In this document: positions 355 through 63,002 of the stretch, one piece after another
How the letters are laid out: the number at the start of each line of letters is the position of its first letter
How positions within the stretch are numbered: position 1 is the first letter of the stretch
Assembly: GCA_017983755.1 (NCBI GenBank)
Contig: JAGOAU010000007.1
Span: forward strand, 1-64,000
Origin: Azonexus sp.
GTDB taxonomy: Bacteria > Pseudomonadota > Gammaproteobacteria > Burkholderiales > Rhodocyclaceae
Direction: 5' to 3'
DNA length: 64,000 nt
Made by a program: the position numbers and the translations under genes
The notes under the pieces: model-generated
What the model was told of the DNA's origin: nothing
What the model saw: the letters and a program-made list of their open reading frames with translations, nothing else
Databases searched by the model: none

Positions 355-540
355 GTGGCGGAATAAGGCGACCGAGGTGGTTTGGCAGCGGTCATTCAAC
401 CCGACGAGAACTCGCCATGGCGACGCTCTAGCTGGCGGCCAGCCCTCGCCACTCCACTTCCCCTTACCTGACGGCCGCAGCTGCGGCCATTGTCGGCTGT
501 TGCGGTCGACGCCCGGCACAAGGCAAAAATGCTGTCTGGC
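355..540 (+). pseudogene. Solo, gutted copy of the cassette that carries the 92-aa gene at 7114-7392
   Basis: This stretch aligns in two blocks with 7052-7520. Bases about 356-430 match the upstream region and start of the small gene at 7114 (shared CAACCCGACGAGAACT and CCATGGCGA), and about 431-540 match its 3' flank, ending with the shared GGCTGTTGCGGTCGACGCCC and AAGGCAAAAATGCTGTCTG. Almost the whole reading frame is gone: the start reads ATG GCG ACG CTC TAG, giving M-A-T-L-stop against M-A-T-L-L in the intact copy. It is best read as a decayed or internally deleted copy of a duplicated cassette. Confidence 0.7.
499..510 (-). repeat. GTYGACCGCAAC element, copy 1
   Basis: Reads GTTGCGGTCGAC on the plus strand. 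It lies in the 3' flank of the gutted cassette, at the same relative place as the copy at 7479. Confidence 0.75.
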
Positions 541-852
541 TGTGATATTTCAATAGCTTGTTCCCTCGGCAGATTCCGGGAAACGGGAGTTTTCGAGGCT
601 TCAGCACCGCAGGAGACACCACCGGATGAACAGTCACGAGAATGCCGGAAGCGCCCCCGCAAAACGCGTCCTGCAGCCATGTCCCTGCCAGTCGATGGCG
701 ATCCGGCAACTGATGATCCTGTGGCGCCAACATGTCAGGGAACACTGATGCCTGCCGGGAGGCGTTTCTGCTATCGTTTCCCGTAATTAGATGGGTGCAT
801 CGGCAGCTTGTCAGCAGGTCCGGCAATCCGCCGCTTGTTTTTCTTCAGCCTC
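541..852. other. Intergenic region before the sensor kinase gene
   Basis: No convincing gene is seen here. Short open frames occur on both strands but have no ribosome site, no recognisable product and no coding-like composition. The region presumably carries the promoter of the two-component pair that starts at 853; no consensus promoter was clear by eye. Confidence 0.4.
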
Positions 853-3216
853 ATGCAGATCAACCATGGCCCCGTGAACGATTCGACCCGCCGCTGCCCG
901 AATTTGCCTTCGTGGGCGAAATACCTTTTGGCGCCGGCGATACTGGCCGTCACGCTGCTGTTTCGCCTGGTGGTTTTGCCCGTCGATGCGGGATTCGGCT
1001 ATTCGATCTTCTTCCCGGGATTGGCGATCACGGTATTCCTGTTCGGCTCAGGACCCGGGCTGCTCTATGTGGCGCTGGCTGCCGCGGTCGGCACTTACAT
1101 ATTCAATCCGCCCTACTGGAGTTTCAGGGATCAGCTGCCGATCCTGCCGCAGTTGGGGTTTTTTGTCGCATCCGCACTGGCAATCCTGGCGATCATCCAC
1201 TATTTCCAGCGCCAGGCAGCACGCCAGCAACGCCGGCTGCAGGACGAAATCACCCAACGCAAGCAGATCGAGGCGGCTTCGGCGAACAACAGCATCCAGC
1301 TGGCCGGCATCATCAGTTCGGCGATGGATGGCATCATTTCCGTGGATTCGCAGCAGCGCATTCTCCTTTTCAATCCGGCAGCCCAGGAGATGTTCGGCTA
1401 CAAGGCCGATGAAGTGCTGGGCCATTCGATCGAGCGCCTGATCCCGGTTCGTTCCCGCCAGATACATGCGGACCATGTGCAAACATTTACCGAAATGGGA
1501 GAGCCCCACCGGAAAATCGCATCGCGGAGCAACTTGAGCGGACTGCATCGCGATGGCACCGAATTTCCCATCGAAGCCTCGATCTCCCGGATGGATGCCA
1601 CCGGACAAGAAATCTATACCGTCATTTTGCGCAACATCAGCGAACGTAAACTGGCAGAACAGGCGCTCATCAACAGCCGCAAGCAATTGACCACCCTGAT
1701 CGAACAGGCGCCGGTCAGCATTGCCATGTTCGACCGCGACATGAACTACATTGCGACCAGTCATCGCTGGCTGGCCGATTATGGCCGCGGTTTGAGCAGC
1801 CTGATCGGCCTCAACCACTACGAGGTCAATCCCGACCTCAACCAGGAATGGAAAGAGGTCCATCGCCAGGCGCTGGCGGGAGTCGCCGTCAGGAATGACA
1901 TGGATTTGTGGGTCATGGCCGACGGCACACGGCGCTGGTTGCGCTGGGCGGTTCACCCCTGGACAAACGAAGCCGGCGCAATCGGCGGCATCATCATGTC
2001 GGCCGAGGATATCACTCACCAAAAACTCGTTGAACAGGCTTTGCGCGCCAGCGAAGACGACCTCGTTCGCGCCCAGGCAGTCGGCAAGATCGGCAGCTGG
2101 CGACTCGATGTGCGACGCAACGAACTGACCTGGTCTTCGGAGAATTATCGAATCTTCGGAATGTCCGAAGGCATGCCATTGAGTTATGAGACCTTTCTTT
2201 CCCGGGTACACCCCGACGATCGGGAATATGTGGACCGCATGTGGAAGGCGAGTCTCGCTGGCGAGCCCTACGACATCGAACATCGCCTGCTGATCGATGG
2301 CCAGGTAAAGTGGGTAAGCGAGAAGGCTGAACTGGAATTTGACGCCCGGGGAAGTGTCGTCGGCGGCTTTGGCATCACGCAGGACATTACGGAACGCCGC
2401 CTGACCAAAAATCATCTCCGTGAAGCCAACATGCGGCTTGCCGCGGTAGCTGCCGAGCGGGCGGAGCACCTGAGCGAGTTGTCCGGCGAACTGATGCGGG
2501 CGGAGCAGCGGGAGCGTGACCGCCTTTACGAATTGCTCCACGACAACGTGCAGCCTATGCTGGTGGCCGCCCGGCTCAGCCTGAGCGGGCTCAGCGAGCG
2601 CACACCACGGGCGGAAATGCTGCAAAGAATTGCCGAGGTAAGCGAGCATATCTCGGGCGTCATTCAGACGGCACGGACGCTCAGCGTCGAGTTGAACCCG
2701 CCGTTGATCCGCGAGCGCGGACTGGTACCGGCGCTGGAGTCCCTGTGCCGCTGGGTGCACGTGAATCATGGGCTGGAGATCGATCTTGTTGCAGCCCAGA
2801 ATACCGAACCCGCCAGCATGACCATTCGGCTGATGTGCTTCAAGGCGGTGCGCGAATTGCTGATGAATGTGGCCAAGCATGCCGGCACTCGGCGCGCCGA
2901 ACTGGTACTGGAGCAGGCGTCCACCGACATGCTGCGGATTACCATCCGCGATCAGGGGGCCGGCTTTGAAATGCCCGCCGAGCATGAAGGCTCCGGCCTC
3001 TCGAATATCGAAAGGCGACTTGGCATGGTAGGGGGCAGCCTGTCGGTCGTCAGTGTCCCTGGTTCCGGATCAGTTGTCACGCTGTTGGCACCGCTCGGGA
3101 AGCGAACTTCGGAGCGCACCATAATGCACCGGCAATTGGTCACCAGCCCGGTCGTCGCTCCGGAAGGACCCGAAATGGCGGTCGCCAGCAACGACGCAGA
3201 AGGAGGAATGGCATGA
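853..3216 (+). CDS. Membrane sensor histidine kinase, DUF4118-like N-terminus, three PAS domains, NarL/DegS class
   Basis: This 787-residue kinase senses an unknown signal and should phosphorylate the regulator encoded by the overlapping next gene. Residues about 17-115 form several hydrophobic segments like the DUF4118 (KdpD/NarX-type) membrane region. Three PAS modules follow at roughly 135-265, 275-400 and 405-530, the last two with PAC-like ends (ITHQKLVEQAL, ITERRL). The dimerisation region has the HisKA_3 pattern RDRLYELLHDNVQ, with the phospho-acceptor His near residue 563. The ATPase domain shows the N-box ELLMNVAKHA and the G-box DQGAGF, and GSGLSNIERRLG. I chose the ATG at 853; an in-frame ATG at 808 and a GTG at 874 are alternatives. 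The stop overlaps the regulator start by four bases. The ligand cannot be read from sequence. Confidence 0.88.
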   Translation: MQINHGPVNDSTRRCPNLPSWAKYLLAPAILAVTLLFRLVVLPVDAGFGYSIFFPGLAITVFLFGSGPGLLYVALAAAVGTYIFNPPYWSFRDQLPILPQLGFFVASALAILAIIHYFQRQAARQQRRLQDEITQRKQIEAASANNSIQLAGIISSAMDGIISVDSQQRILLFNPAAQEMFGYKADEVLGHSIERLIPVRSRQIHADHVQTFTEMGEPHRKIASRSNLSGLHRDGTEFPIEASISRMDATGQEIYTVILRNISERKLAEQALINSRKQLTTLIEQAPVSIAMFDRDMNYIATSHRWLADYGRGLSSLIGLNHYEVNPDLNQEWKEVHRQALAGVAVRNDMDLWVMADGTRRWLRWAVHPWTNEAGAIGGIIMSAEDITHQKLVEQALRASEDDLVRAQAVGKIGSWRLDVRRNELTWSSENYRIFGMSEGMPLSYETFLSRVHPDDREYVDRMWKASLAGEPYDIEHRLLIDGQVKWVSEKAELEFDARGSVVGGFGITQDITERRLTKNHLREANMRLAAVAAERAEHLSELSGELMRAEQRERDRLYELLHDNVQPMLVAARLSLSGLSERTPRAEMLQRIAEVSEHISGVIQTARTLSVELNPPLIRERGLVPALESLCRWVHVNHGLEIDLVAAQNTEPASMTIRLMCFKAVRELLMNVAKHAGTRRAELVLEQASTDMLRITIRDQGAGFEMPAEHEGSGLSNIERRLGMVGGSLSVVSVPGSGSVVTLLAPLGKRTSERTIMHRQLVTSPVVAPEGPEMAVASNDAEGGMA

Positions 3217-7041: not shown

Positions 7042-7113
7042 GGACACGAGCCTGGCGGAACGGGACGACCGAAGTGGTATGCTGTCAGCCGTTCAACCCG
7101 ACGAGAACTCTCC

Positions 7114-7392: not shown

Positions 7393-7478
7393 TCTTCAAT
7401 TTCTGGCGGCCGCCCGTCACCGCCCTGCCCACTTTCACCCGCTAGCCGCAGCCGCTGTCATGGGCGGCATCATCGGCT

Positions 7479-7490
7479 GTTGCGGTCGAC
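7479..7490 (-). repeat. GTYGACCGCAAC element, copy 2
   Basis: GTTGCGGTCGAC on the plus strand, in the 3' flank of the 92-aa gene and upstream of the CBS-domain gene. Its flanks match those of copy 1. Confidence 0.75.
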
Positions 7491-7615
7491 GCCCCGTACA
7501 AGGCAAAAATGCTGTCTGCCGCCGCGCAGAACTCGCGTTCGCCCATTTTGTCTACTTGATATCGGTGAGGTTGCCGTGCAATTGCCGGACATCTCCGTTT
7601 CAATGGGAGTACGCC

Positions 7616-9576: not shown

Positions 9577-10911
9577 TCACGATGAGCGGCGGGTGGCTGT
9601 CCTGGCGACAATTTTACGGCCGCCGGTGCGCGCCCCGCTACGCCTCTGGCGCGCCTGCGGCTTGGCGTTTGCAGCCTGGCGCACGGCGGGCGCCGGGCTG
9701 GCAGCCGGCTTCGGCTTCTTGGGTTTTTTCGGCTTTTTGAGCACCTGGCCGGCCGCGTTGGTCAGCGGCACGCGATGGTCGGGCTCGAAACCGGCCTCCT
9801 CGAAGCGCGGCAAGGTCTGCCGGGTCAGGGTCTCGATGGCCGCAAGCTGGGTCACCTCGTCGGCGCAGACCAGCGACAGCGCCTCGCCGCTGGCACCGGC
9901 GCGGCCGGTGCGGCCGATGCGGTGGATGTAGTCTTCGGCGACGATGGGCAGGTCGAAATTGACGACCAGCGGCAGGTCGTCGATGTCGAGCCCGCGCGCC
10001 GCCACGTCGGTCGCCACCAGAATCTGCACCGCGCCCGCCTTGAAGCGCTCCAGAGCGCGCAGGCGGGCCGGTTGCGGCTTGTCGCCGTGAATCGAATCGG
10101 CGGCGACCCCCTGCGCCTGCAAAGTCGCGACCAGTTGCTCGACGCCCTTGCGGGTCTTGGCGAAGACAAGCACCTGGCCCCAGCGCCGCTTCCTGAGCAG
10201 GTGGCTGAACAATTCCGGCTTCTTTTTCTTGTCGACCGCAACCAGCGATTGCCGGACGCTGCGCGCCGCCGTATTGCGCGGGCTGGTTTCGATCGAGAGC
10301 GGGTTGTCGAGGATAGCGCCGGCCATCCGGCGGATGACATCAGAGAAGGTGGCCGAAAACAGCAGGGTCTGCCGGCGCTTCGGCAAGGCAGCGAACACCG
10401 CATCCAGCTCGCGGGAAAAGCCGAGATCGAGCATGCGGTCGGCTTCGTCGAGAACCAGAACCTGCAGCTGACCGAATTTGATCGCGTTCTGCCGATGCAG
10501 GTCGAGCAGGCGGCCGGGGGTCGCCACCACGACATCGATACCCTTGCGCAGCTTCATCATCTGCGGATTGATGCTGACCCCACCGTAGACAGCGCAAGTG
10601 CGCAGCGGCAGGTTTTGGCCATAGCTACCGATGCTCGTGCAGACTTGCTCTGCCAGTTCGCGCGTCGGCACCAGCACCAGGGCACGCACGGAATTGCTGG
10701 CGACCGGCACGCCTTCCGTAGCCAGACGCTGGAGGATCGGCAAGGCAAACCCGGCGGTCTTGCCGGTGCCCGTCTGCGCCGCCGCCATCAGGTCGCGCCC
10801 GGCCAGGATGGCGGGAATCGCCTGCGTCTGCACCGGCGTCGGCGTCTTGTAGGCGAGAGTGGCCAGTGCAGCAAGCAGGGGATCGATCAGGCCGAGTCGG
10901 GCAAAGGTCAT
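9577..10911 (-). CDS. rhlE: ATP-dependent RNA helicase RhlE
   Basis: A 444-residue DEAD-box helicase that unwinds RNA duplexes in ribosome assembly and RNA turnover. The motifs are in order: the Q motif (PTPVQTQAIP), AAQTGTGKTAGF (motif I), VLVPTRELAEQV (Ia), DEADRMLDLGF (II), FSATF (III), then VFAKTRKGVEQL (IV), VATDVAARGLDI (V) and HRIGRTGRAG (VI). The C-terminal tail is basic and Pro/Lys-rich (KKPKKPKKPKP and a final RSGARTGG), as in other RhlE proteins, and probably binds RNA. The gene is followed by yajD with an overlap. A GTYGACCGCAAC element lies inside it at 10231. Confidence 0.95.
   Translation of the reverse strand: MTFARLGLIDPLLAALATLAYKTPTPVQTQAIPAILAGRDLMAAAQTGTGKTAGFALPILQRLATEGVPVASNSVRALVLVPTRELAEQVCTSIGSYGQNLPLRTCAVYGGVSINPQMMKLRKGIDVVVATPGRLLDLHRQNAIKFGQLQVLVLDEADRMLDLGFSRELDAVFAALPKRRQTLLFSATFSDVIRRMAGAILDNPLSIETSPRNTAARSVRQSLVAVDKKKKPELFSHLLRKRRWGQVLVFAKTRKGVEQLVATLQAQGVAADSIHGDKPQPARLRALERFKAGAVQILVATDVAARGLDIDDLPLVVNFDLPIVAEDYIHRIGRTGRAGASGEALSLVCADEVTQLAAIETLTRQTLPRFEEAGFEPDHRVPLTNAAGQVLKKPKKPKKPKPAASPAPAVRQAANAKPQARQRRSGARTGGRKIVARTATRRSS
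10231..10242 (+). repeat. GTYGACCGCAAC element, copy 3 (inside rhlE)
   Basis: An exact GTCGACCGCAAC copy inside the coding region of rhlE, read there as V-A-V-D. A T-rich run TCTTTTTCTT lies directly before it. Confidence 0.6.
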
Positions 10912-13776: not shown

Positions 13777-13797
13777 AACCGTCGCGGCCGGTGCCGG

Positions 13798-13809
13798 TTG
13801 CGGTCAACC
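13798..13809 (-). repeat. GTYGACCGCAAC element, copy 4 (TTGACC variant)
   Basis: GTTGCGGTCAAC in the 27-base gap between the can stop and the rnr stop; an inverted T-run, CCCCGTTTTTTGG, follows. It overlaps the end of rnr. Confidence 0.65.
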
Positions 13810-16014
13810 CCGTTTTTTGGCCTTTTTTGGCACCTGCTGCTGGCCGGCCAGCACGAAGTCGATCTTGTTGCTCTCCAGATCGGCGCGCACCAGCCTGACC
13901 CGGACCCGGTCGCCGAGGCGGAAACGCTGGCCGGTACGCTCGCCGAGCATCTGGTGCTTGATATTGTCGAACTGGAAATAGTCGGCGCCGAGTTCGGAAA
14001 CGTGCACCAGGCCTTCGATGTAGATCGTGTCGAGGGCGACGAAGATGCCGAAAGCGGTGACGGCCGAAATCGTGCCGTCGAATTCCTCGCCGATGCGCTC
14101 CTTCATGAAGAAGCACTTGAGCCAATTCTCGACGTCGCGCGTCGCCTCGTCGGCTCGGCGTTCGGTCGCCGAGCAATGCAGGCCGATCTCCTCCCAGTCC
14201 CCGGCCGGCGTGTATTTTTCGCCGGCGAGCACGGCCTTGATGGCGCGATGCACCAGCAGGTCGGGGTAGCGGCGGATCGGCGAGGTGAAGTGGGTGTAGT
14301 GCTCGTAGGCGAGGCCAAAATGGCCGACGTTGTCAGGGCTGTACATCGCCTGGCGCAGCGAACGCAGCATCACCGTCTGCAGCAACTGGAAATCGGGGCG
14401 CGGCTTGATCTGTTCGAGCAGCTTGGCGTAGTCCTTGGCCTTGGGATCGTCGCCGCCGCCCAGCGGCAGGCCGAACTCGCCGAGGAAGCTGCGCAGGTTC
14501 TTCAGCTTCTCCTCGCCCGGCGCTTCGTGAATGCGGAACAGGCAGGTCTGCTTGTGCTCGGCCAGAAAATCGGAGGCGCAAACATTGGCCGCCAGCATGC
14601 ATTCCTCGATGATGCGGTGCGCGTCGTTGCGCACCACCGGCACGATGTTCTCGATCTTGCCCTGGTCGTTGAACAGCATCTGCGTTTCTATGGTCTCGAA
14701 GTCGATCGCGCCGCGCACGCCGCGCGCCTTGTGCAGCGCATGGAAGAGCTTGTAGAGATTCTGCAGATGCGGCTGCAGTGAAATATGGATGTCGCTTTCC
14801 GGCTTGGCCGCGCCGGACAGCCACGACCAGACCTGGTTGTAGGTCAGGCGCGCCCTGGAGCGGAACACCGCCCGGCAGAAGCGGTACTTGCCGATCTTGC
14901 CGGCGGCGCTGATTTCCATGTCGCAGACCATGGCCATGCGCTCGACATCAGGGTTCAGCGAGCAGATGCCGTTCGACAGTTTCTCCGGCAGCATCGGGAT
15001 CACCCGGCGCGGAAAATAGACCGAGTTGCCGCGATCCATCGCCTCCTTGTCGAGCGTCATGCCCGGCTTGACGTAATGCGAGACGTCGGCGATCGCCACC
15101 ACCAGCCGCCAGCCGCGACCTTTCTTTTCGCAGAACACGGCGTCGTCGAAATCGCGCGCCGTCTCGCCGTCGATGGTCACCAGCGGCAGGTCGCGCAAAT
15201 CCTCGCGCCCGGCGAGGTCGGCTTTCCTGACCTTGTCCGGCAACGCCTTGTTTTCCTCGAGCGCGGCCTTTGAGAATTCGAACGGCAGATCGTGCTTCCT
15301 GAGCGCGATCTCGATCTCCATGCCGGGATCGGCATAGGTTCCGAGCACCTCGGTGATGCGTCCGATCGGCTGCGAGAACTTGCTCGGCTGCTCGATGATA
15401 TCGACCATCACCACCTGCCCGGACTGCGGCTTGATCTTGGCCTTCTTCTCCGGCGGCACCAGGATGTCCTGCGCGATGCGCCGGTTCTCCGGCACCACGA
15501 AGACGACGCCATGCTCGACGAAGACGCGGCCGACGACGCGCGTGTTGGCACGCTCGGTGACCTCGACGATGCTGCCCTCGGGGCGCCCCTTGCGGTCGAT
15601 GCCGACGACACGCACCAGAGCGCGGTCGCCATGCAGCACCTTGCCCATCTGGTGCTGATCGAGAAAGATGTCGGCGCTGCCGTCGTCGGGAATCAGGAAA
15701 CCGTAGCCGTCCTGATGGCCCTGAATCTTGCCGGCCGTCAGGCTGGCGCGCTCAGGCAGGATGTAGGCGCCTTTGCGGTTGCGCATCAGCTGGCCTTCGC
15801 GCTCCATGGCGCCCAGCCGGCGCTGGAACATCTCGCGTTCGCTGCCGGCAATGTCCAGCAATTCGGTCAATTCGATGAAGCTCAGCGGCCGACCTTCGTC
15901 GGCCAGTATCTGCGAAACATACTCGCGCGACGGCAACGGAAACTCGTAGCGCGCCGACTCGCGTTCGAAGAACGGATCGGCACGGCGGATCTTGGATAGT
16001 TTTTTTCTTGACAT
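13804..16014 (-). CDS. rnr: Ribonuclease R
   Basis: A 736-residue 3'-5' exoribonuclease that degrades structured RNA. The start ATG at 16014 gives the usual beginning MSRKKLSKIRRADPFFERES. N-terminal winged-helix and cold-shock parts (residues 1-230) precede the RNB catalytic domain with IDGETARDFDDAVFCEK, which carries the metal-binding aspartates, and YFPRRVIPMLPEKLSNGICS. A C-terminal S1 domain contains AVTAFGIFVALDTIYIEGLVH. The tail is a short lysine-rich stretch (KKAKKRG), less than in E. coli RNase R (813). The start region overlaps the -35 box of the divergent tRNA-Leu promoter. Confidence 0.96.
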   Translation of the reverse strand: MSRKKLSKIRRADPFFERESARYEFPLPSREYVSQILADEGRPLSFIELTELLDIAGSEREMFQRRLGAMEREGQLMRNRKGAYILPERASLTAGKIQGHQDGYGFLIPDDGSADIFLDQHQMGKVLHGDRALVRVVGIDRKGRPEGSIVEVTERANTRVVGRVFVEHGVVFVVPENRRIAQDILVPPEKKAKIKPQSGQVVMVDIIEQPSKFSQPIGRITEVLGTYADPGMEIEIALRKHDLPFEFSKAALEENKALPDKVRKADLAGREDLRDLPLVTIDGETARDFDDAVFCEKKGRGWRLVVAIADVSHYVKPGMTLDKEAMDRGNSVYFPRRVIPMLPEKLSNGICSLNPDVERMAMVCDMEISAAGKIGKYRFCRAVFRSRARLTYNQVWSWLSGAAKPESDIHISLQPHLQNLYKLFHALHKARGVRGAIDFETIETQMLFNDQGKIENIVPVVRNDAHRIIEECMLAANVCASDFLAEHKQTCLFRIHEAPGEEKLKNLRSFLGEFGLPLGGGDDPKAKDYAKLLEQIKPRPDFQLLQTVMLRSLRQAMYSPDNVGHFGLAYEHYTHFTSPIRRYPDLLVHRAIKAVLAGEKYTPAGDWEEIGLHCSATERRADEATRDVENWLKCFFMKERIGEEFDGTISAVTAFGIFVALDTIYIEGLVHVSELGADYFQFDNIKHQMLGERTGQRFRLGDRVRVRLVRADLESNKIDFVLAGQQQVPKKAKKRG

Positions 16015-16181: not shown

Positions 16182-16202
16182 CATTTTCGCCGCTTTTTTC
16201 CG

Positions 16203-16214
16203 GTCGACCGCAAC
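16203..16214 (+). repeat. GTYGACCGCAAC element, copy 5
   Basis: Exact GTCGACCGCAAC about 20 bases after the tRNA terminator, with a T-run GCTTTTTTCCG directly before it. Confidence 0.8.
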
Positions 16215-16330
16215 AGGCGCATATCGACTCGGGGGCCATTGTCTCACATGGCCGGCGCCCGGTAACAAATGCTCACAATTCTGCCGGAGCACATCGTCAT
16301 CCGCCTCTCCCGGGCCGCGTTATTCGGTTC

Positions 16331-16766: not shown

Positions 16767-17672
16767 ATGCGCCTGTTTCTGCTGCTCTGGCTACTGACTG
16801 GCAGTGCCTGCGCCGGTATCGCCGAGGCCAGACAGCCCTACCCCTTCGCAGTCAGCGCCGAACGGATCGGCAGCGGCCAGAACCTCGTCGCCCGCAACCT
16901 CGGGCCGGCGCCGGTATCGGTCCGCCTGACACTGAGCGCCGCCGACAATGTCGTCGCCTCCCAGCCCCTGCCGGTCAACGCCATCGTCCGGCCCTACAGC
17001 GAGATGGTGCTGTTGCAGATTCGCCCCGCCGACCCGGCACGCGGCCTGCACTTTTCCAGCCAGTCCGCCTACAACCTCGGCAACTTCCACGCGCAGCATG
17101 ACCCGCAGGCGCGCTACCGGCTGCCGTTCGCCGATGGCGGCAGCTTCGTCATCAGCCAGGCGGCCAACGGCCCGCTGACGACACACACCACCGCCGACAG
17201 CGAAAACGCCGTCGATTTCACGCTGCCGGAAAACACGCCCGTCGTCGCCGCCCGCGACGGCACCGTGATCGAAACGGAATCAGCCAACCGCTACGGCGGC
17301 CGGGATCGTGTGCTGCTGAACATGGCAAACTACGTGCGCATCCTGCACGCCGACGAAACGGTCGCCACCTACGCTCACCTCGCGCCCGGCGGCGTCACCG
17401 TGGCACCCGGGCAACGCGTGACGGCCGGCACACTGATCGGCTATTCCGGCGCCACCGGCTACACTGCCGGCCCGCACCTGCATTTCGTCGTGCAGAAACC
17501 GGTACCGACCGCCCAGGGATTCACGATGCGCTCGCTACCGCTGCGCTTCTACGTCGGCAATCCGCCCTATGTCTTCGAGCCGCGCACCCGGCAACGGGTG
17601 ACGGCCGATTATTCGACCCCCGGCACCGCGCCGCCGCTGGTCAACGAAAAACGGGCCTTCGAGGCCCGTTGA
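16767..17672 (+). CDS. Exported M23-family peptidase
   Basis: A 301-residue protein with a signal peptide (MRLFLLLWLLTGSACAG), predicted to act on peptidoglycan cross-links in the periplasm. An N-terminal beta-rich part (residues 25-140) precedes the LytM/M23 domain, with ENAVDFTLPENTPVVAARDG, YVRILHADETVATYAHL and the HxH zinc motif in GPHLHFVV. The Asp ligand is visible in AVDF, but the first His ligand of classic M23 enzymes is not in its usual place, so activity is probable, not certain. The start ATG at 16767 fits the signal peptide. Its stop codon lies in a GTYGACCGCAAC element and its last codons form the purA terminator. Confidence 0.88.
   Translation: MRLFLLLWLLTGSACAGIAEARQPYPFAVSAERIGSGQNLVARNLGPAPVSVRLTLSAADNVVASQPLPVNAIVRPYSEMVLLQIRPADPARGLHFSSQSAYNLGNFHAQHDPQARYRLPFADGGSFVISQAANGPLTTHTTADSENAVDFTLPENTPVVAARDGTVIETESANRYGGRDRVLLNMANYVRILHADETVATYAHLAPGGVTVAPGQRVTAGTLIGYSGATGYTAGPHLHFVVQKPVPTAQGFTMRSLPLRFYVGNPPYVFEPRTRQRVTADYSTPGTAPPLVNEKRAFEAR
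17650..17670 (-). terminator. Intrinsic terminator of purA, embedded in the end of the M23 gene
   Basis: An 8-base-pair stem (AACGGGCC with GGCCCGTT) with a 5-base loop, followed on the minus strand by a run of T. It encodes the last residues of the peptidase (KRAFEAR) on the plus strand. Confidence 0.75.
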
Positions 17673-17679
17673 CCGCAAC
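17668..17679 (+). repeat. GTYGACCGCAAC element, copy 6, supplies the M23 gene stop
   Basis: GTTGACCGCAAC; the TGA in the element is the stop codon of the peptidase gene. Confidence 0.75.
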
Positions 17680-17680
17680 C

Positions 17681-17700
17681 GGCGCCATTCGGCGCCTTTT
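17681..17700 (+). terminator. Putative terminator after the M23 gene
   Basis: Stem GGCGCC/GGCGCC with loop ATTC and a TTTT tail, read in the plus direction between the convergent peptidase and purA genes. The stem is short. Confidence 0.55.
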
Positions 17701-34750: not shown

Positions 34751-34840
34751 GGACGGTCACCACAAAACCGAAAGGGCGCGCATTGGAGCACGCGCAGATT
34801 TCAGTTTCGTGACGCGGCCGGAAATGGCCGGGTTTTCGGG

Positions 34841-34852
34841 GTCGACCGCAAC
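34841..34852 (+). repeat. GTYGACCGCAAC element, copy 9
   Basis: Exact GTCGACCGCAAC between the PilJ-domain gene and the terminator of the TRAP operon; GGTTTTCGGG precedes it. Confidence 0.8.
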
Positions 34853-34858
34853 CGACGT

Positions 34859-37037: not shown

Positions 37038-38042
37038 TTACAGGGCGTTCGGATCGAAACCGGTTTCCTTGTAGACGCTCTGGATGATCTCCTTGCCGAT
37101 GCGCGATTCCATCTTCTGATGCACCGGGATCAGCGCCTTCTTGAAGGCCATGCGCTCTTCCTTGGTCGGCACGGCAACTGCGGTCTTGCCGCTCTTCTTC
37201 ACGGAATCCAGATCCTTGTCGTTCTGCTCCTTGGCGATCTTGTTGGCATAGACGGTCGAATCCTTCATCGCCGTTTCCAGCTGGCCGCGCACGTCGGCCG
37301 GCAGGCCGTCCCAGAACTTCTTGTTGACGATGACCGCGTAGCCGAGATAGCCATGATCGGTCAGGGTCATGTGCTTCTGCACTTCATGCATCTTCTGGGT
37401 GTAGAAATTGGAAATCGGGTTCTCGGTGCCGTCGACCACACCCGTCTGCAGCGCCTGATAGACCTCGGAGAAGGCCATCACCTGCGGCAGCGCACCGAGG
37501 GTGCGCATCTGCTCTTCCAGCACCTTGGACGACTGGATGCGCATTTTCTTGCCCTTGAGGTCGGCCGGCGCCTTGATCGGCGAGTTCAGCGAGAAGGACT
37601 TGAAGCCGTTGTCCCAGAAGGCGAGGCCGCGGATGCCCTTGGGCTCAAGCTTGGTCAGCAGCTGCTGACCGACCGGACCCTGGGTGACCTTGTGCAGGTC
37701 GTTGTAGTCGTCGAAGATGAACGGCAGGTCGAAGACCTCGAATTCCTTGACGCCGAGCGGGCCGAACTTGGCCAGTGAGGGGGCGAGCATCTGGACGGCG
37801 CCGAGCTGCAGCGCTTCCATCTCCTCCTTGTCCTTGTACAGCGTCGAGTTGGCATAGACCTCGACCTTGACCTTGCCCTTGGTCAGCTCTTCCGCCTTCT
37901 TGGCAAAATACTCGGCCGCCAGACCCTTGGGGGTCTCCTTGGCGACGACGTGGCTGAACTTGATGACGATCGGTTGCTGGGCGTAGACCGCGAACGACAG
38001 GGCGCCGGCGAACAGGCCAACCAGAAGCTTCGAGATTTTCAT
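37038..38042 (-). CDS. dctP: TRAP transporter periplasmic solute-binding protein DctP
   Basis: A 334-residue secreted binding protein (signal peptide LLVGLFAGALSFAVYAQ). The family pattern VIKFSHVVAKETPKGLAAEY, FYTQKMHEVQKHMTLTDHGY and the central GVVDGTENPISNFYTQ are conserved in C4-dicarboxylate TRAP binding proteins; an arginine in KKMRIQSSKVLEEQMRTLG binds the substrate carboxylate. It captures a dicarboxylate and passes it to DctQM. The gene is first of the operon. A palindrome shared with the dctA-dctS promoter region lies 84 bases upstream of its start codon. Confidence 0.96.
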   Translation of the reverse strand: MKISKLLVGLFAGALSFAVYAQQPIVIKFSHVVAKETPKGLAAEYFAKKAEELTKGKVKVEVYANSTLYKDKEEMEALQLGAVQMLAPSLAKFGPLGVKEFEVFDLPFIFDDYNDLHKVTQGPVGQQLLTKLEPKGIRGLAFWDNGFKSFSLNSPIKAPADLKGKKMRIQSSKVLEEQMRTLGALPQVMAFSEVYQALQTGVVDGTENPISNFYTQKMHEVQKHMTLTDHGYLGYAVIVNKKFWDGLPADVRGQLETAMKDSTVYANKIAKEQNDKDLDSVKKSGKTAVAVPTKEERMAFKKALIPVHQKMESRIGKEIIQSVYKETGFDPNAL

Positions 38043-46128: not shown

Positions 46129-46135
46129 CCGCAAC
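46124..46135 (+). repeat. GTYGACCGCAAC element, copy 10, supplies a stop codon
   Basis: GTTGACCGCAAC; its TGA is the stop codon of the glycosyltransferase gene, which runs convergent with orn. Confidence 0.75.
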
Positions 46136-46141
46136 AGGCGG

Positions 46142-46744: not shown

Positions 46745-47989
46745 GTGACCACCGACTTCACCCTCCTCTTTCTCGCCGCCGTCGCGCTGACACTGGCCGG
46801 CCGCCTGTGGCTGACGCTGCGCCAGATCCGCTTCGTCGCCGCGCATCGCGCCGCCGTCCCGCCCGACTTCGCCGAACGCATTGCGCTTGCCGCTCACCAA
46901 AAGGCCGCCGATTACACGGTCGACCGCAACAGGCTGGCGATAGTCACGACGCTGGTCGATGCAGCGCTGCTCATCGCCCTGACGCTCGGCGGCGGCCTCG
47001 CCTGGCTGCATGAATTGTGGAGCGCGCGCCTTGACGGCCTGCCCTACGGCCTGGCGCTGATCTTCAGTGTGATGGCGATCTCGGCCCTGATCGACCTGCC
47101 CTTTTCACTCTACCGCCAGTTCGTCATCGAGGCCCGCTACGGCTTCAACCGCATGACGCTCGGCCTGTTCTTCGCCGATCTCGCCAAGCACACGCTGCTC
47201 GGCGTCGCCATCGGCACCCCGGTGATCCTCGCCGTACTCTGGCTGATGGGCGCCATGGGCGAGTTCTGGTGGTTCCACGTCTGGCTGTTCTGGAGCGCCT
47301 TTAACCTGGTCGCGCTGTTCGTCTACCCGACCTGGATCGCGCCGCTGTTCAACAAGTTCTCGCCGCTCGAGGAAGGTGAGATGAAGACCCGCATCGAGGC
47401 CCTGCTCGCCCGCTGCGGCTTTCGCTCCAGCGGCCTCTTCGTCATGGACGGCTCGAAGCGCTCCAGCCACGGCAACGCCTACTTCACCGGCTTCGGTAAC
47501 AACAAGCGCATCGTCTTCTTCGACACCCTGCTCAGCCGCCTCGCCGCGCCGGAAATCGAGGCGGTGCTGGCGCACGAACTCGGCCACTTCCGCCGCCACC
47601 ACATCGTCCAGCGCATCGCGCTGATGTTCGCCACCTCGCTCGGCTTCCTCTGGCTGCTCGGCCAGCTGATCGACGCCGCCTGGTTCTACAACGGGCTCGG
47701 TGTGCCGGCGCAGAATACGGCGCTGGCGCTGATCCTGTTCTTCCTCGTCATTCCCGTCTTCACCTTCCCGTTCAAGCCACTGACCAGCTATCTGTCGCGC
47801 CGCAACGAGTTCGAGGCCGATGCCTACGCTGCCGAACACGCCGCCGCCGGCGATCTGGTGCGGGCGCTGGTCAAGCTCTACGAAGACAATGCCGCGACCC
47901 TGACGCCCGACCCGCTGCACTCGCTGTTCTACGACTCCCACCCGCCGGCAGCCGTCCGCATCGCCCGGCTTCAGGCCGCCGCCCGCTGA
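46745..47989 (+). CDS. M48-family integral membrane metalloprotease (Ste24-like)
   Basis: A 414-residue protein with about seven membrane segments. The zinc motif HExxH is in AVLAHELGHFRRHH, with the third ligand Glu in RRNEFEADAYAAEH. Other Ste24/CAAX prenyl protease-like features are IEARYGFNRMTLGLFFADL, VYPTWIAPLFNKFSPLEEGE and GFGNNKRIVFFDTLL. In bacteria, members clear misfolded or signal membrane proteins. The start codon is a GTG at 46745. The stop overlaps the rsgA start by one base. A GTYGACCGCAAC element is in frame at residue 59 as V-D-R-N. Confidence 0.93.
   Translation: MTTDFTLLFLAAVALTLAGRLWLTLRQIRFVAAHRAAVPPDFAERIALAAHQKAADYTVDRNRLAIVTTLVDAALLIALTLGGGLAWLHELWSARLDGLPYGLALIFSVMAISALIDLPFSLYRQFVIEARYGFNRMTLGLFFADLAKHTLLGVAIGTPVILAVLWLMGAMGEFWWFHVWLFWSAFNLVALFVYPTWIAPLFNKFSPLEEGEMKTRIEALLARCGFRSSGLFVMDGSKRSSHGNAYFTGFGNNKRIVFFDTLLSRLAAPEIEAVLAHELGHFRRHHIVQRIALMFATSLGFLWLLGQLIDAAWFYNGLGVPAQNTALALILFFLVIPVFTFPFKPLTSYLSRRNEFEADAYAAEHAAAGDLVRALVKLYEDNAATLTPDPLHSLFYDSHPPAAVRIARLQAAAR
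46919..46930 (+). repeat. GTYGACCGCAAC element, copy 11 (inside the M48 gene)
   Basis: Exact GTCGACCGCAAC in frame as V-D-R-N. Confidence 0.6.
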
Positions 47990-48840: not shown

Positions 48841-48904
48841 ACCGGCGATGGATTACGGAAACCTTGCGACCGTCGGCAGCGATGAAAATTGGCCATTTTT
48901 CGCG

Positions 48905-48916
48905 GTCGACCGCAAA
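48905..48916 (+). repeat. GTYGACCGCAAC element, near-match
   Basis: GTCGACCGCAAA, one mismatch in the last base, between rsgA and the orphan gene at 48996. A T-run TTTTTCGCG precedes it and GGTTTTTGGGG follows. Confidence 0.55.
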
Positions 48917-48995
48917 CGGTTTTTGGGGCAGTCATCTGGCCATCAGAAAACCTGAACCTGGCCCTTATTTGCTTTTTGAAATATCCAGGCAAAAC

Positions 48996-49728: not shown

Positions 49729-50045
49729 AAAAGGGGCCAGGCTCGAATTAATTTTAGGCACGCAGTGTTATCAGCCGGTTTTTGTCAGCCAAGCTTGTGC
49801 CCCGTCCCCGGCGGCACGTCCGGTAGCGAAGCAGGCGGTCAGCAGGTAGCCGCCGGTCGGCGCCTCCCAGTCCAGCATTTCGCCGGCGCAGAAGACACCC
49901 GGCAGGTCGCGCAGCATCAGGTTTTCGTCGAGCGCCTCAAAAGCGACGCCGCCGGCTGTGCTGATCGCCTCGTCGAGCGGCCGCGTCGCCGTCACCGGCA
50001 GCGGCAGGTGCTTGATCGCCGCCGCCAGACGGTCTGCTGCGGTCA
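49729..50045. repeat. Direct repeat unit 2 (3' end and downstream of the intact flavoprotein gene)
   Basis: The intact partner of the unit at 49402-49720. It starts with AAAAGGGGCCAGGCTCGAAT and ends at GCTGCGGTCAAC (50034-50045), the weak GTYGAC-like word that corresponds to the copy in unit 1. Confidence 0.8.
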
Positions 50046-50985
50046 ACGTCTCAAAAGGCAGCAATTCGCGCAGCAACCCGGCCTTGACGCCTTCGATGCC
50101 GGCCCGCCGGCGCAGGTGGTTGGCCAGCGAATCGCGCCCGCGCGGCCGGGCCAGGTCGGCGCGCAGGCGTTCCAGCGTCTTGCCGGGCGCCAAATCGAGA
50201 TGCAGGATGGCACGGCCTTGGGTTGCCAGCGCATCGCGCAACGGTGCCGACAGCGCATAGACCAGCCCGCCCTCAATACCGGTCGCCGTGATGTTGAACT
50301 CGCCCTGCTGGCGCCACCCGGCGACCGACGCGACGACCGGCTTGACTGGCTGGCCGGCGAAGCGCTCGGCGAAATACGGGCTCCACGCCACGTCGAAGCC
50401 GCAATTTGCCGGTTTCAGCGGGGCGATGTCGATACCGCGCGCCGCCAGCAGCTGCACCCAGGCGCCGTCGGAGCCGAGCCGAGCCCAGCTGCCGCCGCCC
50501 AGTGCCAGCACCACGGCATCTACAGCCAGCGCCGTTTCGCCGACCGGCGTCGCGAAGCGCAGCGCTCCATCCGCCGCCCAGCCCAGCCAGCGGTGCCGGA
50601 CATGAAACTGCACGCCGCACTGGCGCAGGCGGTGTAGCCAGGCGCGTAACAGCGGCGCGGCCTTCATTTCACTGGGGAAGACGCGGCCCGAGGTGCCAAC
50701 GAAGGTGGCGATGCCAAGGTCCTGTATCCAGTCGCGCAATTGCTGCGGGCCGAAGCGCTCGAGCAGCGGGCCGATAGCGGCCTGGCGGTCGCCGTAGCGG
50801 CCGATGAAATCGGCCAGCGGCTCGGCATGGGTGATGTTCATGCCGCCCTTGCCGGCCATCAGGAACTTGCGGCCGACCGAGGGCATGGCGTCGAAAACGG
50901 CCACTTCCAGGCCGTCGACCGCAGCAAGCTGTTCGGCAGCGATCAGGCCGGCCGGCCCGCCGCCGATGATGGCGACCCGCGGCAT
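49771..50985 (-). CDS. HI0933/BaiN-family FAD-dependent flavoprotein
   Basis: A 404-residue protein with an N-terminal FAD-binding Rossmann motif ([19 protein letters not shown]), the family motif [16 protein letters not shown], and a late NAD(P)/FAD element ([20 protein letters not shown]). The HI0933-like family (sometimes linked to BaiN in bile-acid dehydroxylation) has no firmly known reaction in Betaproteobacteria. Its ATG overlaps the stop of the transglutaminase gene, so it is in the ATP-grasp/transglutaminase operon. A partial copy of its 3' end lies downstream. Confidence 0.88.
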
Positions 50986-58237: not shown

Positions 58238-61200
58238 ATGGATCAACGCATTCCCACCCAGCGCATCATCAAGATTCGCCGCGACTACAACACCTGGGTC
58301 GCCGACGAGACGCTCGAAGACTACGCGCTGCGCTTCACGCCGCGCAGCTTCCGCAAATGGTCGGAAATGCGTGTCGCCAACACCGCCTTCGGCGCCGCCT
58401 CGTTTCTGGTGCTGGAGGCGGTCGGCGCCACCATGCTGGTCAACGCCGGTTTCATCAACGCCTTCTGGGCGATCCTGGCGACCGGCCTGATCATCTTCCT
58501 GATCGGCCTGCCGATCAGCGTCACCGCTGCCCGCCACGGGCTGGACATGGACCTGCTGACGCGCGGCGCCGGCTTCGGCTACATCGGCTCGACCATCACC
58601 TCGCTGATCTACGCCAGTTTCACCTTCATCTTCTTTGCCCTCGAAGCGGCGATCATGGCCTATGCGCTGGAGCTCGCCTTCGGCATTCCGCCGGCCTGGG
58701 GCTACCTGGTCTGCGCGCTGGTCGTCATCCCGCTGGTCACCCACGGCGTCACGGCGATCAGCAGGCTGCAGGCGTGGACCCAGCCGCTATGGATCGTCCT
58801 GCTGGTGCTGCCCTACGTCTTCGTACTCATCGAAGAGCCCGACGCCTTCGCCGGCCTGCTCGCCTATGCCGGCGAGCGCGGCGACGGCGCCGGCTTCGAC
58901 CCGCACCTGTTCGGCGCCGCGCTGACGGTCGGCATCGCGCTGGTCACGCAGATGGGCGAACAGGTCGATTACCTGCGCTTCATGCCGGAAAAGACGCCAG
59001 CTAACCGCCGCCGCTGGTGGTTTGGCGTCATCGTCGGCGGCCCGGGCTGGGTCGTCCCGGGCATCCTGAAGATGCTCGGCGGCGCCCTGCTTGCCTGGCT
59101 GGTACTGCGCAACGGAATTTCGGCCGAAAAGGCGGTTGACCCCAACCAGATGTACCTGATCGGCTTCTCGCACGTCTTCGACAACACGACGCTGGCGATC
59201 GCCGCCACCGTGCTCTTCGTCGTCGTTTCGCAGCTCAAGATCAACGTCACCAACGCCTACGCCGGTTCGCTGGCGTGGTCCAACTTCTTCGCCCGGTTGA
59301 CGCACAGCCACCCCGGCCGCGTCGTCTGGGTCGTCTTCAACACGCTGATCGCGCTGCTGCTGATGGAACTCAACGTCTTCCAGGCGCTAGGCCAGGTGCT
59401 CGGCCTCTATTCCAACATCGCCATTTCGTGGATGGCGGCGGTGGTCGCCGATCTCGTGATCAACAAGCCTCTCGGCCTGGCGCCGCCGGGCATCGAGTTC
59501 AAGCGCAGCAACCTCTACGACATCAACCCGGTCGGCGTCGGCGCCATGGGCATCGCCTCGCTGCTCTCCATCGCCACCTTCGTCGGCCTGTTCGGGACGG
59601 ACATCCAGCCCTATGCTTCGTTCGTCGCGCTGGGCAGTGCGCTGCTCGTCTCGCCGCTGATCGCCTGGGCTACCGGCGGGCGCTACTACCTGGTGCGCCC
59701 GCCGGAGCCTGTTGCGGTCGACGCCCGGAAATGCGCGATTTGCGAACGCGACTACGAAGGCGAGGACATGGCCCACTGCCCCGCCTACCAGGGCCCGATC
59801 TGCTCGCTGTGCTGCTCGCTGGACGCCCGCTGCCACGACCTGTGCAAGCCGGAGGCCAGCCTCACCGCCCAGTGGAACGCCGTCCTGCGCCGCCTGCTGC
59901 CGGCGCCCGCCCTGCCCTACCTGGAAACCGGCCTCGGCCACTACCTGCTGCTGATGACCGGCATCGTGCCGGTGCTGGCACTGGTCCTCGGCGTGCTGTA
60001 CACCCACGAACTGCTGGCCCTCGGGGCGGAGCAGACGGTGCTGATCGCCGCATTGCAGGACAGCTTCATCAAGGCTTTTGCCGCCTTGCTGCTGTTGTCC
60101 GGCGTCGCCGCCTGGTGGATGGTGCTGACGCAGCAAAGCCGCGAAGTGGCACAGGAGGAATCGAACCGCCAGACGCAGTTGCTGATGCAGGAAATCGAAT
60201 CGCACCAGCGCACCGACGCCGCCCTGCAAAAGGCCCGCCAGGTCGCGGAACAGGCCAACCAGGCCAAGAGCCGCTACATAACGGCAATCAGCCACGAACT
60301 GCGCACGCCCTTGAACAGCATCCTTGGCTACGCGCAGATTCTCGCCGCCGACGAAAGCGTGCCGCCCAAGCGCAAACAGGCGGTCAGCGTCATCCGCAAG
60401 AGCGGCGACCACCTGCTGTCGGTCATCGAAGGTACTCTCGACATCGCCCGCATCGAGGGCGGCAAGCTGACGCTCGACGTCCGTGCCCTCGATTTCCCCG
60501 ATTTCCTGCAGCAGATCGTCGGCATGTTCGAGTTGCAGGCGCGCAACAAGGGGCTGTCTTTCGCCTACCGGCCGGCCGGCGAGATGCCGGCGGTGGTACG
60601 CGCCGACGAACGGCGCCTGCGCCAGATCCTGATCAATGTGCTCGGCAACGCGGTCAAGTTCACGGTACGCGGCGGCGTCGAATTCAGGGTCGAATGCCGG
60701 CGCGAGATGGCCGTCTTCGAGATCCACGACAGCGGCCCCGGCATTCCCGCCGCCGATCTCGACCGCATCTTCGAACCCTTCCAGCGCGGCAGCACGGCCC
60801 AGGCCGGCGGCAGCGGCGTCGGCCTGACCATCGCCCGCATGCTGACCGACCTGATGGGCGGCGAGATGCAGGTGTCGAGCACGCCCGGCGAAGGCACCCT
60901 GTTCCGCATCCGCCTCTTCCTGCCGCAGGTCCATTCAGCGCAAGCCGCCGGCGAACTGCCGCGCCTGAATCGCATCGGCTACGTCGGCGTGCGCCGACGC
61001 ATCCTCGTCGTCGACAACGAGAGGGTGGACCGCGACATGCTGCAAAGCGTGCTCGAACCGCTCGGCTTCGTCGTCGAGCAGGCGGCCAATGGCTACGAGG
61101 CGCTGCAGGCGATCCCGCGCTTCGCACCGCACCTGGTCTTCATGGATCTCGGCATGCCCGGCATCGACGGTTGGGAAACCATCCGCCGCATTCGCCGGCA

Positions 61201-61618
61201 GCAGCTGACCGACGCCCACATCGCCATCCTCTCGGCCAATGCCTTCGACAAGGGACTGGACAACGACGCCGGCATCGCCGCCGCGGATTTCATCGTCAAG
61301 CCGTTGCGCGTCAATGAACTGCTCGACTGGATCGGCCGCAAGCTTGCCCTCGACTGGGTCGCCGCCGACACGCCGCCGGCCCCCGCCGTCGCCGCCGAGC
61401 CCCCGCCGCTGCTGCCGCCGCCTGAAGCACATCTGATCGCCCTCGACGAACTGATCGGCCTCGGCTACCTGCGCGGCATCCTGGCCAGGCTGGCCGAAAT
61501 CGAGAAAATCGACCCGCAGCACGGCGAATTCGTGCGTGTGCTGCGCGATCTGGCGCGACAATTCCAGTTCGATGCCATGAAGGAACTTCTCAGGAAAACG
61601 CGCGATGCCAACCGTTGA
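58238..61618 (+). CDS. NCS1 permease - Cys-rich domain - hybrid histidine kinase fusion
   Basis: A 1126-residue protein. Residues 1-490 are an NCS1-family transporter (nucleobase/allantoin/hydantoin type) with about twelve membrane segments (VGATMLVNAGFINAFWAILA, GIALVTQMGEQVDYLRFMPE). A cysteine-rich segment (about 497-535: RKCAICERDYEGEDMAHCPA, then ICSLCCSLDARCHDLCKP) suggests a zinc-binding domain. Two further membrane segments precede HisKA (RYITAISHELRTPLNSILGY; H near residue 688), an ATPase domain (IHDSGPGIPA, GSGVGLTIARMLTDL), a receiver domain with VFMDLGMPGIDG, and a helical end. It probably senses the transported compound. The ATG at 58238 was chosen; one at 58214 is in frame. Confidence 0.9.
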   Translation: MDQRIPTQRIIKIRRDYNTWVADETLEDYALRFTPRSFRKWSEMRVANTAFGAASFLVLEAVGATMLVNAGFINAFWAILATGLIIFLIGLPISVTAARHGLDMDLLTRGAGFGYIGSTITSLIYASFTFIFFALEAAIMAYALELAFGIPPAWGYLVCALVVIPLVTHGVTAISRLQAWTQPLWIVLLVLPYVFVLIEEPDAFAGLLAYAGERGDGAGFDPHLFGAALTVGIALVTQMGEQVDYLRFMPEKTPANRRRWWFGVIVGGPGWVVPGILKMLGGALLAWLVLRNGISAEKAVDPNQMYLIGFSHVFDNTTLAIAATVLFVVVSQLKINVTNAYAGSLAWSNFFARLTHSHPGRVVWVVFNTLIALLLMELNVFQALGQVLGLYSNIAISWMAAVVADLVINKPLGLAPPGIEFKRSNLYDINPVGVGAMGIASLLSIATFVGLFGTDIQPYASFVALGSALLVSPLIAWATGGRYYLVRPPEPVAVDARKCAICERDYEGEDMAHCPAYQGPICSLCCSLDARCHDLCKPEASLTAQWNAVLRRLLPAPALPYLETGLGHYLLLMTGIVPVLALVLGVLYTHELLALGAEQTVLIAALQDSFIKAFAALLLLSGVAAWWMVLTQQSREVAQEESNRQTQLLMQEIESHQRTDAALQKARQVAEQANQAKSRYITAISHELRTPLNSILGYAQILAADESVPPKRKQAVSVIRKSGDHLLSVIEGTLDIARIEGGKLTLDVRALDFPDFLQQIVGMFELQARNKGLSFAYRPAGEMPAVVRADERRLRQILINVLGNAVKFTVRGGVEFRVECRREMAVFEIHDSGPGIPAADLDRIFEPFQRGSTAQAGGSGVGLTIARMLTDLMGGEMQVSSTPGEGTLFRIRLFLPQVHSAQAAGELPRLNRIGYVGVRRRILVVDNERVDRDMLQSVLEPLGFVVEQAANGYEALQAIPRFAPHLVFMDLGMPGIDGWETIRRIRRQQLTDAHIAILSANAFDKGLDNDAGIAAADFIVKPLRVNELLDWIGRKLALDWVAADTPPAPAVAAEPPPLLPPPEAHLIALDELIGLGYLRGILARLAEIEKIDPQHGEFVRVLRDLARQFQFDAMKELLRKTRDANR
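59711..59722 (-). repeat. GTYGACCGCAAC element, copy 12 (permease/Cys-domain junction)
   Basis: GTTGCGGTCGAC, encoding V-A-V-D at the exact border between the transporter and the Cys-rich domain. Confidence 0.7.
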
Positions 61619-62531
61619 CCGCAACATTTCGGACATCGTCCTGATCGTCGACGACGTGCCGGAAAACCTCTCGCTGCTGCACGATGCGCTGGACGACGCC
61701 GGCCATACCGTGCTCGTCGCCACCAATGGCGAATCGGCCCTGCAGCGCGCCCGCCAGAGCCTGCCCGACGTCATCCTGCTCGACGCCCTGATGCCGGGCA
61801 TCGATGGCTTCGAAGTTGCCCGTCGCCTGAAGGCCGATTTTGCGACGCAACACATTCCCATCGTCTTCATGACCGGGCTGACCGAAACCGAGCACGTCGT
61901 CGCCGCCTTCGCCGCCGGCGGCGCCGATTACGTGACCAAGCCGATCCGCCCGCCGGAAGTGCTGGCGCGCATCGCCGCCCACATGCAGAACGCCCGCCAG
62001 ATGAAGCAGGCGCGCAGCGCGCTCGATGCCTTCGGCCAGGCCACCGTCGCCGTGCGCGCTGCCGACGGGAAACTGGTCTGGCAAACGCCGCTCGCCCGCA
62101 AGCTGCTCAACGACTATTTCGCCAATCCCGAAGACGTGGCGCCGGAAGAATTGCTCACCTGGATCGCCAACGCCCACCGTGCCCGGCGCGACGGCCGCGA
62201 ACCATCGTCGCTGCTTATCGCCGACGGCAGTCGCCGCCTGCTCGCCTCCTTCCACGACCAGACCGGCGACGACGAATGGCTGGTCGTACTGCGCGAGGAA
62301 AACGACGCTTCCGCCATCGATTCGCTGATCGCCGCCTTCCGCCTGACCCAGCGCGAAGCGGAAGTTCTCTATTGGGTCGTCCAGGGCAAGACCAGCAACG
62401 ACATCGGCGACATCCTCGGCAACAGCCCGCGCACGGTCAACAAGCACCTGGAACACGTTTTCGAGAAGCTCGGCGTCGAGACGCGGACGGCGGCGGCCAA
62501 TCTGGCGCTGGGCCGGATGCGCGGGGCGTAG
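61605..62531 (+). CDS. Response regulator with receiver, sensor-like middle and LuxR output domain
   Basis: A 308-residue regulator that overlaps the end of the permease-kinase by 14 bases and is surely its partner. The receiver domain has IVLIVDDVPENLSLLHDAL, the phospho-acceptor Asp in VILLDALMPGIDG, and the Lys in DYVTKPIRPPE. A middle part of about 110 residues with PAS-like traits (RSALDAFGQATVAVRAADGK, LLIADGSRRLLASF) follows. The C-terminal LuxR helix-turn-helix has LTQREAEVLYWVVQGKTSND and GNSPRTVNKHLEHVFEKLG. The ATG at 61605 keeps the GTYGACCGCAAC element in frame as V-D-R-N at residues 4-7. Confidence 0.92.
   Translation: MPTVDRNISDIVLIVDDVPENLSLLHDALDDAGHTVLVATNGESALQRARQSLPDVILLDALMPGIDGFEVARRLKADFATQHIPIVFMTGLTETEHVVAAFAAGGADYVTKPIRPPEVLARIAAHMQNARQMKQARSALDAFGQATVAVRAADGKLVWQTPLARKLLNDYFANPEDVAPEELLTWIANAHRARRDGREPSSLLIADGSRRLLASFHDQTGDDEWLVVLREENDASAIDSLIAAFRLTQREAEVLYWVVQGKTSNDIGDILGNSPRTVNKHLEHVFEKLGVETRTAAANLALGRMRGA
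61614..61625 (+). repeat. GTYGACCGCAAC element, copy 13, in two overlapping genes
   Basis: GTTGACCGCAAC; its TGA ends the permease-kinase gene while the same bases encode V-D-R-N in the regulator gene. Confidence 0.75.
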
Positions 62532-62612: not shown

Positions 62613-62864
62613 TCAGGCGGCGCTCAGCAGAGCGGCGTATTCGCGCTCCAGACGCCGCATTTCCGCCCGCATGCCAACCTGCTGGCCGGCGGTGACCATG
62701 CGCTGCCCTGCCTTCCATTCGAATTCGATATCACCCGGATGCACGCCGGCATGCACCAGCGCCAGCGCCATCGTCCGGAAATCCGGCCGTGTGATACGCC
62801 AGCCGTCACTCGTTACGGCAACGAATTCATTGTGGCAAAACGCTACGGTTGCACTAATCGCCAT
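62613..62864 (-). CDS. Small orphan protein, paralogue of the product at 3929-4222
   Basis: An 83-residue protein of the same unknown family as that at 3929-4222 (core EFEWKAGQRMVTAGQQVGMR, with NEFVAVTSDGW near the N-terminus and AEMRRLEREYAALL after the core). A perfect AAAGGAGGT ribosome site lies 4-12 bases upstream of the start; ATG at 62864 is used, with GTG at 62867 directly before it as an alternative. The gene is convergent with, and 81 bases from, the end of the regulator gene. It is soluble, probably cytosolic, and has no assigned function. Confidence 0.78.
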   Translation of the reverse strand: MAISATVAFCHNEFVAVTSDGWRITRPDFRTMALALVHAGVHPGDIEFEWKAGQRMVTAGQQVGMRAEMRRLEREYAALLSAA

Positions 62865-62990
62865 CACGTTACCTCCTTTGCCTACAAGGTAACGCGATGC
62901 CATGCGAATCGACTGTTACATATTCCACACTGCCCGAGAAATCGTCTGCGGCGGGCTGGACGCGCGCCCGAAAACGGCCCTTTTTTCCTG

Positions 62991-63002
62991 GTCGACCGCA
63001 AC
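62991..63002 (+). repeat. GTYGACCGCAAC element, copy 14
   Basis: Exact GTCGACCGCAAC just after the glutathione S-transferase stop (in the minus direction), with CCTTTTTTCCTG before it. Confidence 0.8.

Follow-up and report, generated by a model that had tools for sequence, protein, structure and literature searches.

A probable DNA-uptake signal of Haemophilus-like anatomy dispersed through Azonexus and Dechloromonas genomes

The first 64,000 nucleotides of contig JAGOAU010000007.1 from an Azonexus sp. assembly (GCA_017983755.1), hereafter the window, carry many copies of a 12-base word, GTYGACCGCAAC. The repeat is real and exceeds what chance or coding would give. We find that the word is the core of a motif of about 37 bases which, in sequence, has the anatomy of the Haemophilus uptake signal, a GCGG core with two AT segments, and we consider it likely that the repeat acts as a DNA-uptake signal.

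The repeat and the longer motif around it

Fourteen exact copies of the word lie in the window, ten on the plus and four on the minus strand, and a further 11 copies have one mismatch. These 25 matches compare with a mean of 1.02 in 100 shuffles, which bears out the rarity by chance claimed in a preliminary description of this DNA. That description had listed all 14 exact copies, ten of them on the plus strand, and had placed 13 correctly; the remaining one, given at 13798, starts at 13797. The five one-mismatch copies that it named are present, two of them displaced by one or two bases, and its tally fell short of the 11. As it had proposed, we also counted the word in the whole assembly (2,515,346 bases in 43 contigs, 74% complete). 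There are 349 copies, 177 forward and 172 reverse, far over the five copies (three forward and two reverse) of the reversed word. Because the strands are balanced genome-wide, the 10:4 excess of the window is local.

When 65 exact copies, drawn from a 461,564-base part of our genome, were aligned, conserved positions appeared well beyond the 12-mer; the same profile came from 54 copies in 400 kb of Dechloromonas sp. SSB2 (G227). Written in the orientation GTTGCGGTC[GA]AC and numbered from the first G of GCGG (position 0), the motif reads G.C[TG]G[TC]T-GCGGTC[GA]AC-..C.-AAAAA-.GG.C.-AWWWT-C from -7 to +29. The core GCGGTC[GA]AC is followed by two tracts, one A-rich (+13 to +17) and the other AT (+24 to +28), with 11 bp between their centres. 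The T-run that had been noticed a few bases ahead of many copies is one of these two tracts. All 78 exact copies in a 557,564-base sample (22% of the genome) have A or T at both +25 and +26.

A matrix of 41 positions, built from 49 SSB2 sites alone and applied with a cut-off of at least 12 bits, found 170 sites in this sample and one on the reversed sequence. Twenty-one sites fall in the window (Table 1), comprising 13 of the 14 exact copies, six of the 11 one-mismatch copies and two more divergent sites. The exact copy below the cut-off, at 24553 in der, scores 7.1 bits, lies in conserved coding sequence and is probably forced by the protein. Both der copies had been suspected of being partly protein-forced, and the suspicion fits this one; the core of the other, in the site at 25057, is largely constrained by the protein, and that site scores 16.3 bits. 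Sites are spaced apart in the sample, where 11 of 165 gaps are shorter than 500 bp against 23.4 expected from an exponential distribution.

Genes in the sample were called with our own gene caller, unchecked against annotation (530 calls covering 0.884 of the bases). They contain 58 instances of the core with the second tract, where 40 synonymous-codon shuffles gave 1.55 on average and never more than 4. The 12-mer occurs 46 times, against 3.2 (maximum 8) in 40 such shuffles, so that the codon-preserving control suggested in the preliminary description also upholds the excess.

Distribution, placement and origin of the copies

The closest named relatives of this genome are Dechloromonas records. 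Counts of the core with the second tract range from 2 to 657 across 76 genus genomes, and the reversed pattern reaches at most 6 per strand; 33 genomes carry at least 100 copies, 18 carry 13-99 and 25 carry 12 or fewer. Outside the genus, the maximum among 399 genomes sampled from the order is 8 copies, and in a family sample of 150 genomes the 12-mer exceeds 11 copies only in genomes of the same genus. A der tree with 32 rows, of which 30 carry a label, requires no fewer than eight switches between the motif-rich and motif-poor states; nine of its 29 inner branches are weak. D. agitata, whose Der is 91% identical, is nearly devoid of the motif. In the comparison with relatives proposed in the preliminary description, the word or a lineage variant is present in some and counts are low in others. 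Two records under the name Azonexus hydrophilus also differ sharply, with 23 sites in DSM 23864 and 530 in ZS02.

Selected sites (14 to 38 per genome, from samples of 80-100 kb) show a constant GCGGTC[GA]AC core and 5' bases that vary by lineage. The prevailing bases are G[TC]T in our genome and also in SSB2, TGCT for G155 and G189, and T[CG]CT for D. denitrificans and for G218; in G152 and G153, where the first AT segment is weak or absent, the base directly before GCGG is most often A. A search for dialects in 100 kb each of D. agitata (G235) and G112 found no word comparable to the motif. In 100 kb of the motif-poor D. agitata is5 (G235), CAGGCGGTCG is over-represented (12 copies vs 2.33), possibly as another word.

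Most sites lie inside genes, and exact copies are enriched between them (29 of 78 vs 9.0 expected). The density of matrix sites is highest between convergent genes, at 1.82 per kb, and is 0.25 per kb inside genes. A hairpin followed by T lies within 60 bp of 14 of 45 intergenic sites, compared with 164 of 1470 control positions, and three facing pairs of sites are 41-42 bp apart. In 400 kb of SSB2 (54 of 479 copies), orientation is independent of GC skew, the strands being split 14 vs 11 in positive-skew stretches and 15 vs 14 in negative ones. The longest site-free stretch is a low-GC island of 29 kb (G000 C1:123510-152497) that starts near tRNA-Lys/Lys/Thr genes; among ten of its proteins scanned were type I restriction-modification and another restriction gene. 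Motif sites are missing from this acquired segment, the one island examined. The second-longest such stretch, of 14.7 kb (G000 C23:95376-110037), contains the minor-pilin operon described below.

To follow the origin of the copies, nine window positions were compared with 50 loci of relatives. Three of them, at 29260, 32196 and 33532, are informative and lie well within genes; of the 78 rows displayed for these (the best 26 per site), 74 are gapless, whether or not they bear the motif. The two der positions are mostly fixed by the protein. The in-gene copies arose by substitution and not by insertion.

Table 1. Uptake-signal-like sites in the window, with matrix scores
Position	Strand	Bits	Location and remarks
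495..531	+	30.6	Intergenic
7475..7511	+	32.8	Intergenic
10210..10246	-	29.4	In DEAD-box helicase gene
13793..13829	+	28.7	Across 3' end of RNB-domain ribonuclease gene; terminator-like stem and T-run
16182..16218	-	48.9	Right after tRNA-Leu and terminator-like stem; strongest in the window
17647..17683	-	22.2	Across 3' end of peptidase M23 gene; overlaps terminator-like stem-loop
25057..25093	-	16.3	In der; core largely protein-constrained
29253..29289	+	17.3	In ispG (GcpE); relatives have gapless counterparts without the motif
32167..32203	-	21.0	In gene; variant core
33503..33539	-	25.6	In gene; variant core
34820..34856	-	40.0	Intergenic
37410..37446	-	18.5	In gene; variant core
46103..46139	-	25.9	Across 3' end of gene
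46898..46934	-	29.7	In M48 peptidase gene
48884..48920	-	42.9	Between convergent genes
50032..50068	+	22.0	In HI0933-like flavoprotein gene
50893..50929	-	28.0	Second site in HI0933-like flavoprotein gene
59114..59150	-	20.6	In hybrid histidine kinase gene; variant core
59707..59743	+	40.0	Second site in hybrid histidine kinase gene
61593..61629	-	14.3	At response-regulator gene start
62970..63006	-	39.8	Intergenic

The intergenic sequence around the first two sites of Table 1 is near-identical, perhaps through a local duplication.

Likeness to known uptake signals

The uptake signal of the Pasteurellaceae, with a Hin type (AAGTGCGGT) and an Apl type (ACAAGCGGT), combines a GCGG inner core with a pair of AT-rich segments on its 3' side, spaced by about one turn of the helix. 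The two types diverge just 5' of GCGGT, and ACAAGCGGTC, the most frequent 10-mer in two Apl-type genomes, includes GCGGTC (PMC1626085, PMC12616744, PMC7811141, PMC5217627). The Dechloromonas/Azonexus motif shares with this signal the GCGG inner core (as defined in PMC12616744), two AT tracts on the 3' side that are separated by roughly a turn of the helix, dialects whose differences lie immediately 5' of GCGGT, a non-insertion origin at in-gene sites, facing pairs and overlap with terminators. It is likewise present in hundreds of copies on both strands, with no polarity (54 copies, one complete genome). In contrast, it has a different 9-mer, the longer core GCGGTC[GA]AC, another host family, a GC-rich host and a lower density. 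Its second tract, at +24..28, lies about 5 bp beyond the T tract of H. influenzae, whose position (+19..23) is implied by spaced pairs given as terminator parts (PMC5217627). Because the core is longer and the second tract farther out, we liken the motif to the Pasteurellaceae signal without counting it as one of that class.

The DNA uptake sequence of the Neisseriaceae, GCCGTCTGAA and its dialects with ComP as receptor, resembles the motif in proposed function, dialects, inverted pairs and the presence of a ComP_DUS-family pilin. Its core is unrelated, and it has no flanking AT segments (PMC1626085, PMC12616744), whereas the motif described here does. Furthermore, the pilin does not follow the motif in Dechloromonas/Azonexus.

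Within a literature search that had preprints outside its scope, no work joined an uptake sequence with Dechloromonas or Rhodocyclaceae, and the one match with Azonexus concerned Neisseria pili, by title and abstract start. Among the matches listed, none of the papers with GCGGTCGAC was on uptake by title, and those listed from the wider uptake-signal literature named no third family in titles and abstract starts.

Competence genes and the weighing of explanations

Matches to comEC were found in 71 of the 76 genus genomes, in pieces in some, and in all 51 high-quality ones; dprA was found in 75 of 76, including our assembly. Motif-rich isolates in which the comEC match is unbroken include Dechloromonas denitrificans ATCC BAA-841, Dechloromonas sp. 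H13 and Azonexus sp. R2A61. On the contig of the window, at about 102-111 kb, lies a minor-pilin operon with ispH, a ComP_DUS-family pilin, fimT and further genes, which we take by position and sequence to resemble pilV, pilW, pilX and pilY1. A ComP_DUS-family pilin is present in 70 of the 76 genomes, motif-rich and motif-poor alike. The operon has possibly been exchanged: its counterparts in G182, G192, G195 and G196 resemble it more than do the operons of the closest relatives by der.

In two genomes, G202 (C1:2217501-2253500) and G182 (C33:108501-145500), comEC is interrupted at the identical position by elements of about 32-34 kb that are similar in part. In G202 the 5' part of comEC has a gene for a large serine recombinase beside it; in G182 the element encodes a type ISP restriction enzyme. 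Both genomes are motif-poor, with 12 and 43 sites respectively.

Several results weigh against an uptake role. No comEC match was found in our own 74%-complete assembly. Among motif-rich genomes, G160 (matched to A. hydrophilus ZS02) has comEC in two pieces on two contigs, a split that rests on the match search, the open reading frame scanned for its C17 piece not being comEC; G205 has comEC pieces only and no dprA match. Disruption of comEC was set aside as the cause of motif poverty, the association not being significant: of the 51 high-quality genomes (25 motif-rich and 26 motif-poor), five were counted as disrupted (G157, G169, G182, G202 and G160), and four of these are poor (p=0.35); G205 and G162 were not counted, as their comEC matches end at contig ends. 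The ComP_DUS-family pilin does not look like the specificity receptor, its similarity not following the motif. Our pilin and FimT are closest, at 58-63% identity, to those of G182, G192, G195 and G196, which carry 43, 36, 141 and 96 sites, and both are less similar to those of four close motif-rich relatives (38-51% for the pilin). FimT, which shows the same pattern, does not look like the receptor either. Additionally, counterparts of the four gene-end or intergenic positions compared are few and mostly carry indels, and terminator-like matches in window positions 1-20000 are at shuffle level (18 vs 17.3). In the motif-poor G235 and G112 the second tract accompanies 3 of 13 chance-level cores. 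Site density is about 1 per 3.3 kb, against roughly 1 per kb in Haemophilus and Neisseria. Finally, among the papers listed on natural transformation and Dechloromonas, none deals with the competence of the genus, by title and abstract start.

Of the alternatives, the binding site of an abundant chromosome-organising or regulatory DNA-bending protein, spread through the chromosome, would account for an asymmetric site with phased AT tracts that is enriched between genes. We regard it as unlikely, given that sites lie on either strand within unrelated genes, vary by lineage, are nearly absent from D. agitata and others and are missing from one acquired island. A housekeeping protein, moreover, is not expected to lose most of its sites repeatedly, as at least eight changes of state would imply. 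The preliminary description had offered an uptake sequence, which is the best supported of its options, beside a recombination or chromosome-organising site and a repetitive extragenic palindromic (REP) element. A polar recombination or segregation signal such as Chi or FtsK-orienting polar sequences (KOPS) would also be frequent and genome-wide with a short core. The motif is long and has AT tracts, however, and the lack of strand bias with GC skew in the SSB2 sample speaks against replichore polarity, so that this option is largely refuted and very improbable.

A REP-like or other mobile short repeat spread by insertion would fit copies that are dispersed, partly intergenic and in some cases overlapping stem-loops, as well as the indels at several intergenic counterparts. 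Most sites lie in genes, however, and the in-gene positions compared align with few gaps, showing no insertion there; the motif does not behave as an intergenic unit spread by insertion, and we give this explanation scarcely any credence. A by-product of chance, base composition or codon use has next to no probability. GCG GTC GAC is a common in-frame reading and the der copies are largely forced, but the contrast with the reversed word (349 vs 5) and the synonymous shuffles refute this origin for the set as a whole.

For a DNA-uptake signal, we infer the following steps of recognition, uptake and recombination. A surface DNA receptor, most likely a type IV pilus minor pilin, would bind the asymmetric core GCGGTC[GA]AC, and the two AT tracts one helical turn apart would ease bending or melting, letting double-stranded DNA be pulled through the outer-membrane secretin. 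ComEC would then pass one strand inside, where DprA and RecA would recombine it. Incoming fragments that bear the signal would recombine into the chromosome more often, and copies made by point mutation would therefore spread wherever they do little harm, while lineages would drift in their preferred 5' bases.

Taken together, the balance tips slightly towards a third family with sequence-specific DNA uptake, one that arrived independently at the Haemophilus plan of a GCGG core and two phased AT tracts. If this is true, the plan would owe its form to the mechanics by which DNA is kinked on its way across the outer membrane and not to ancestry. The genus offers named strains with comEC and dprA, large differences in copy number and several dialects, and such a third case would allow comparison and simple uptake assays to address how uptake bias evolves and what serves as the still unproven receptor for GCGG-type signals.

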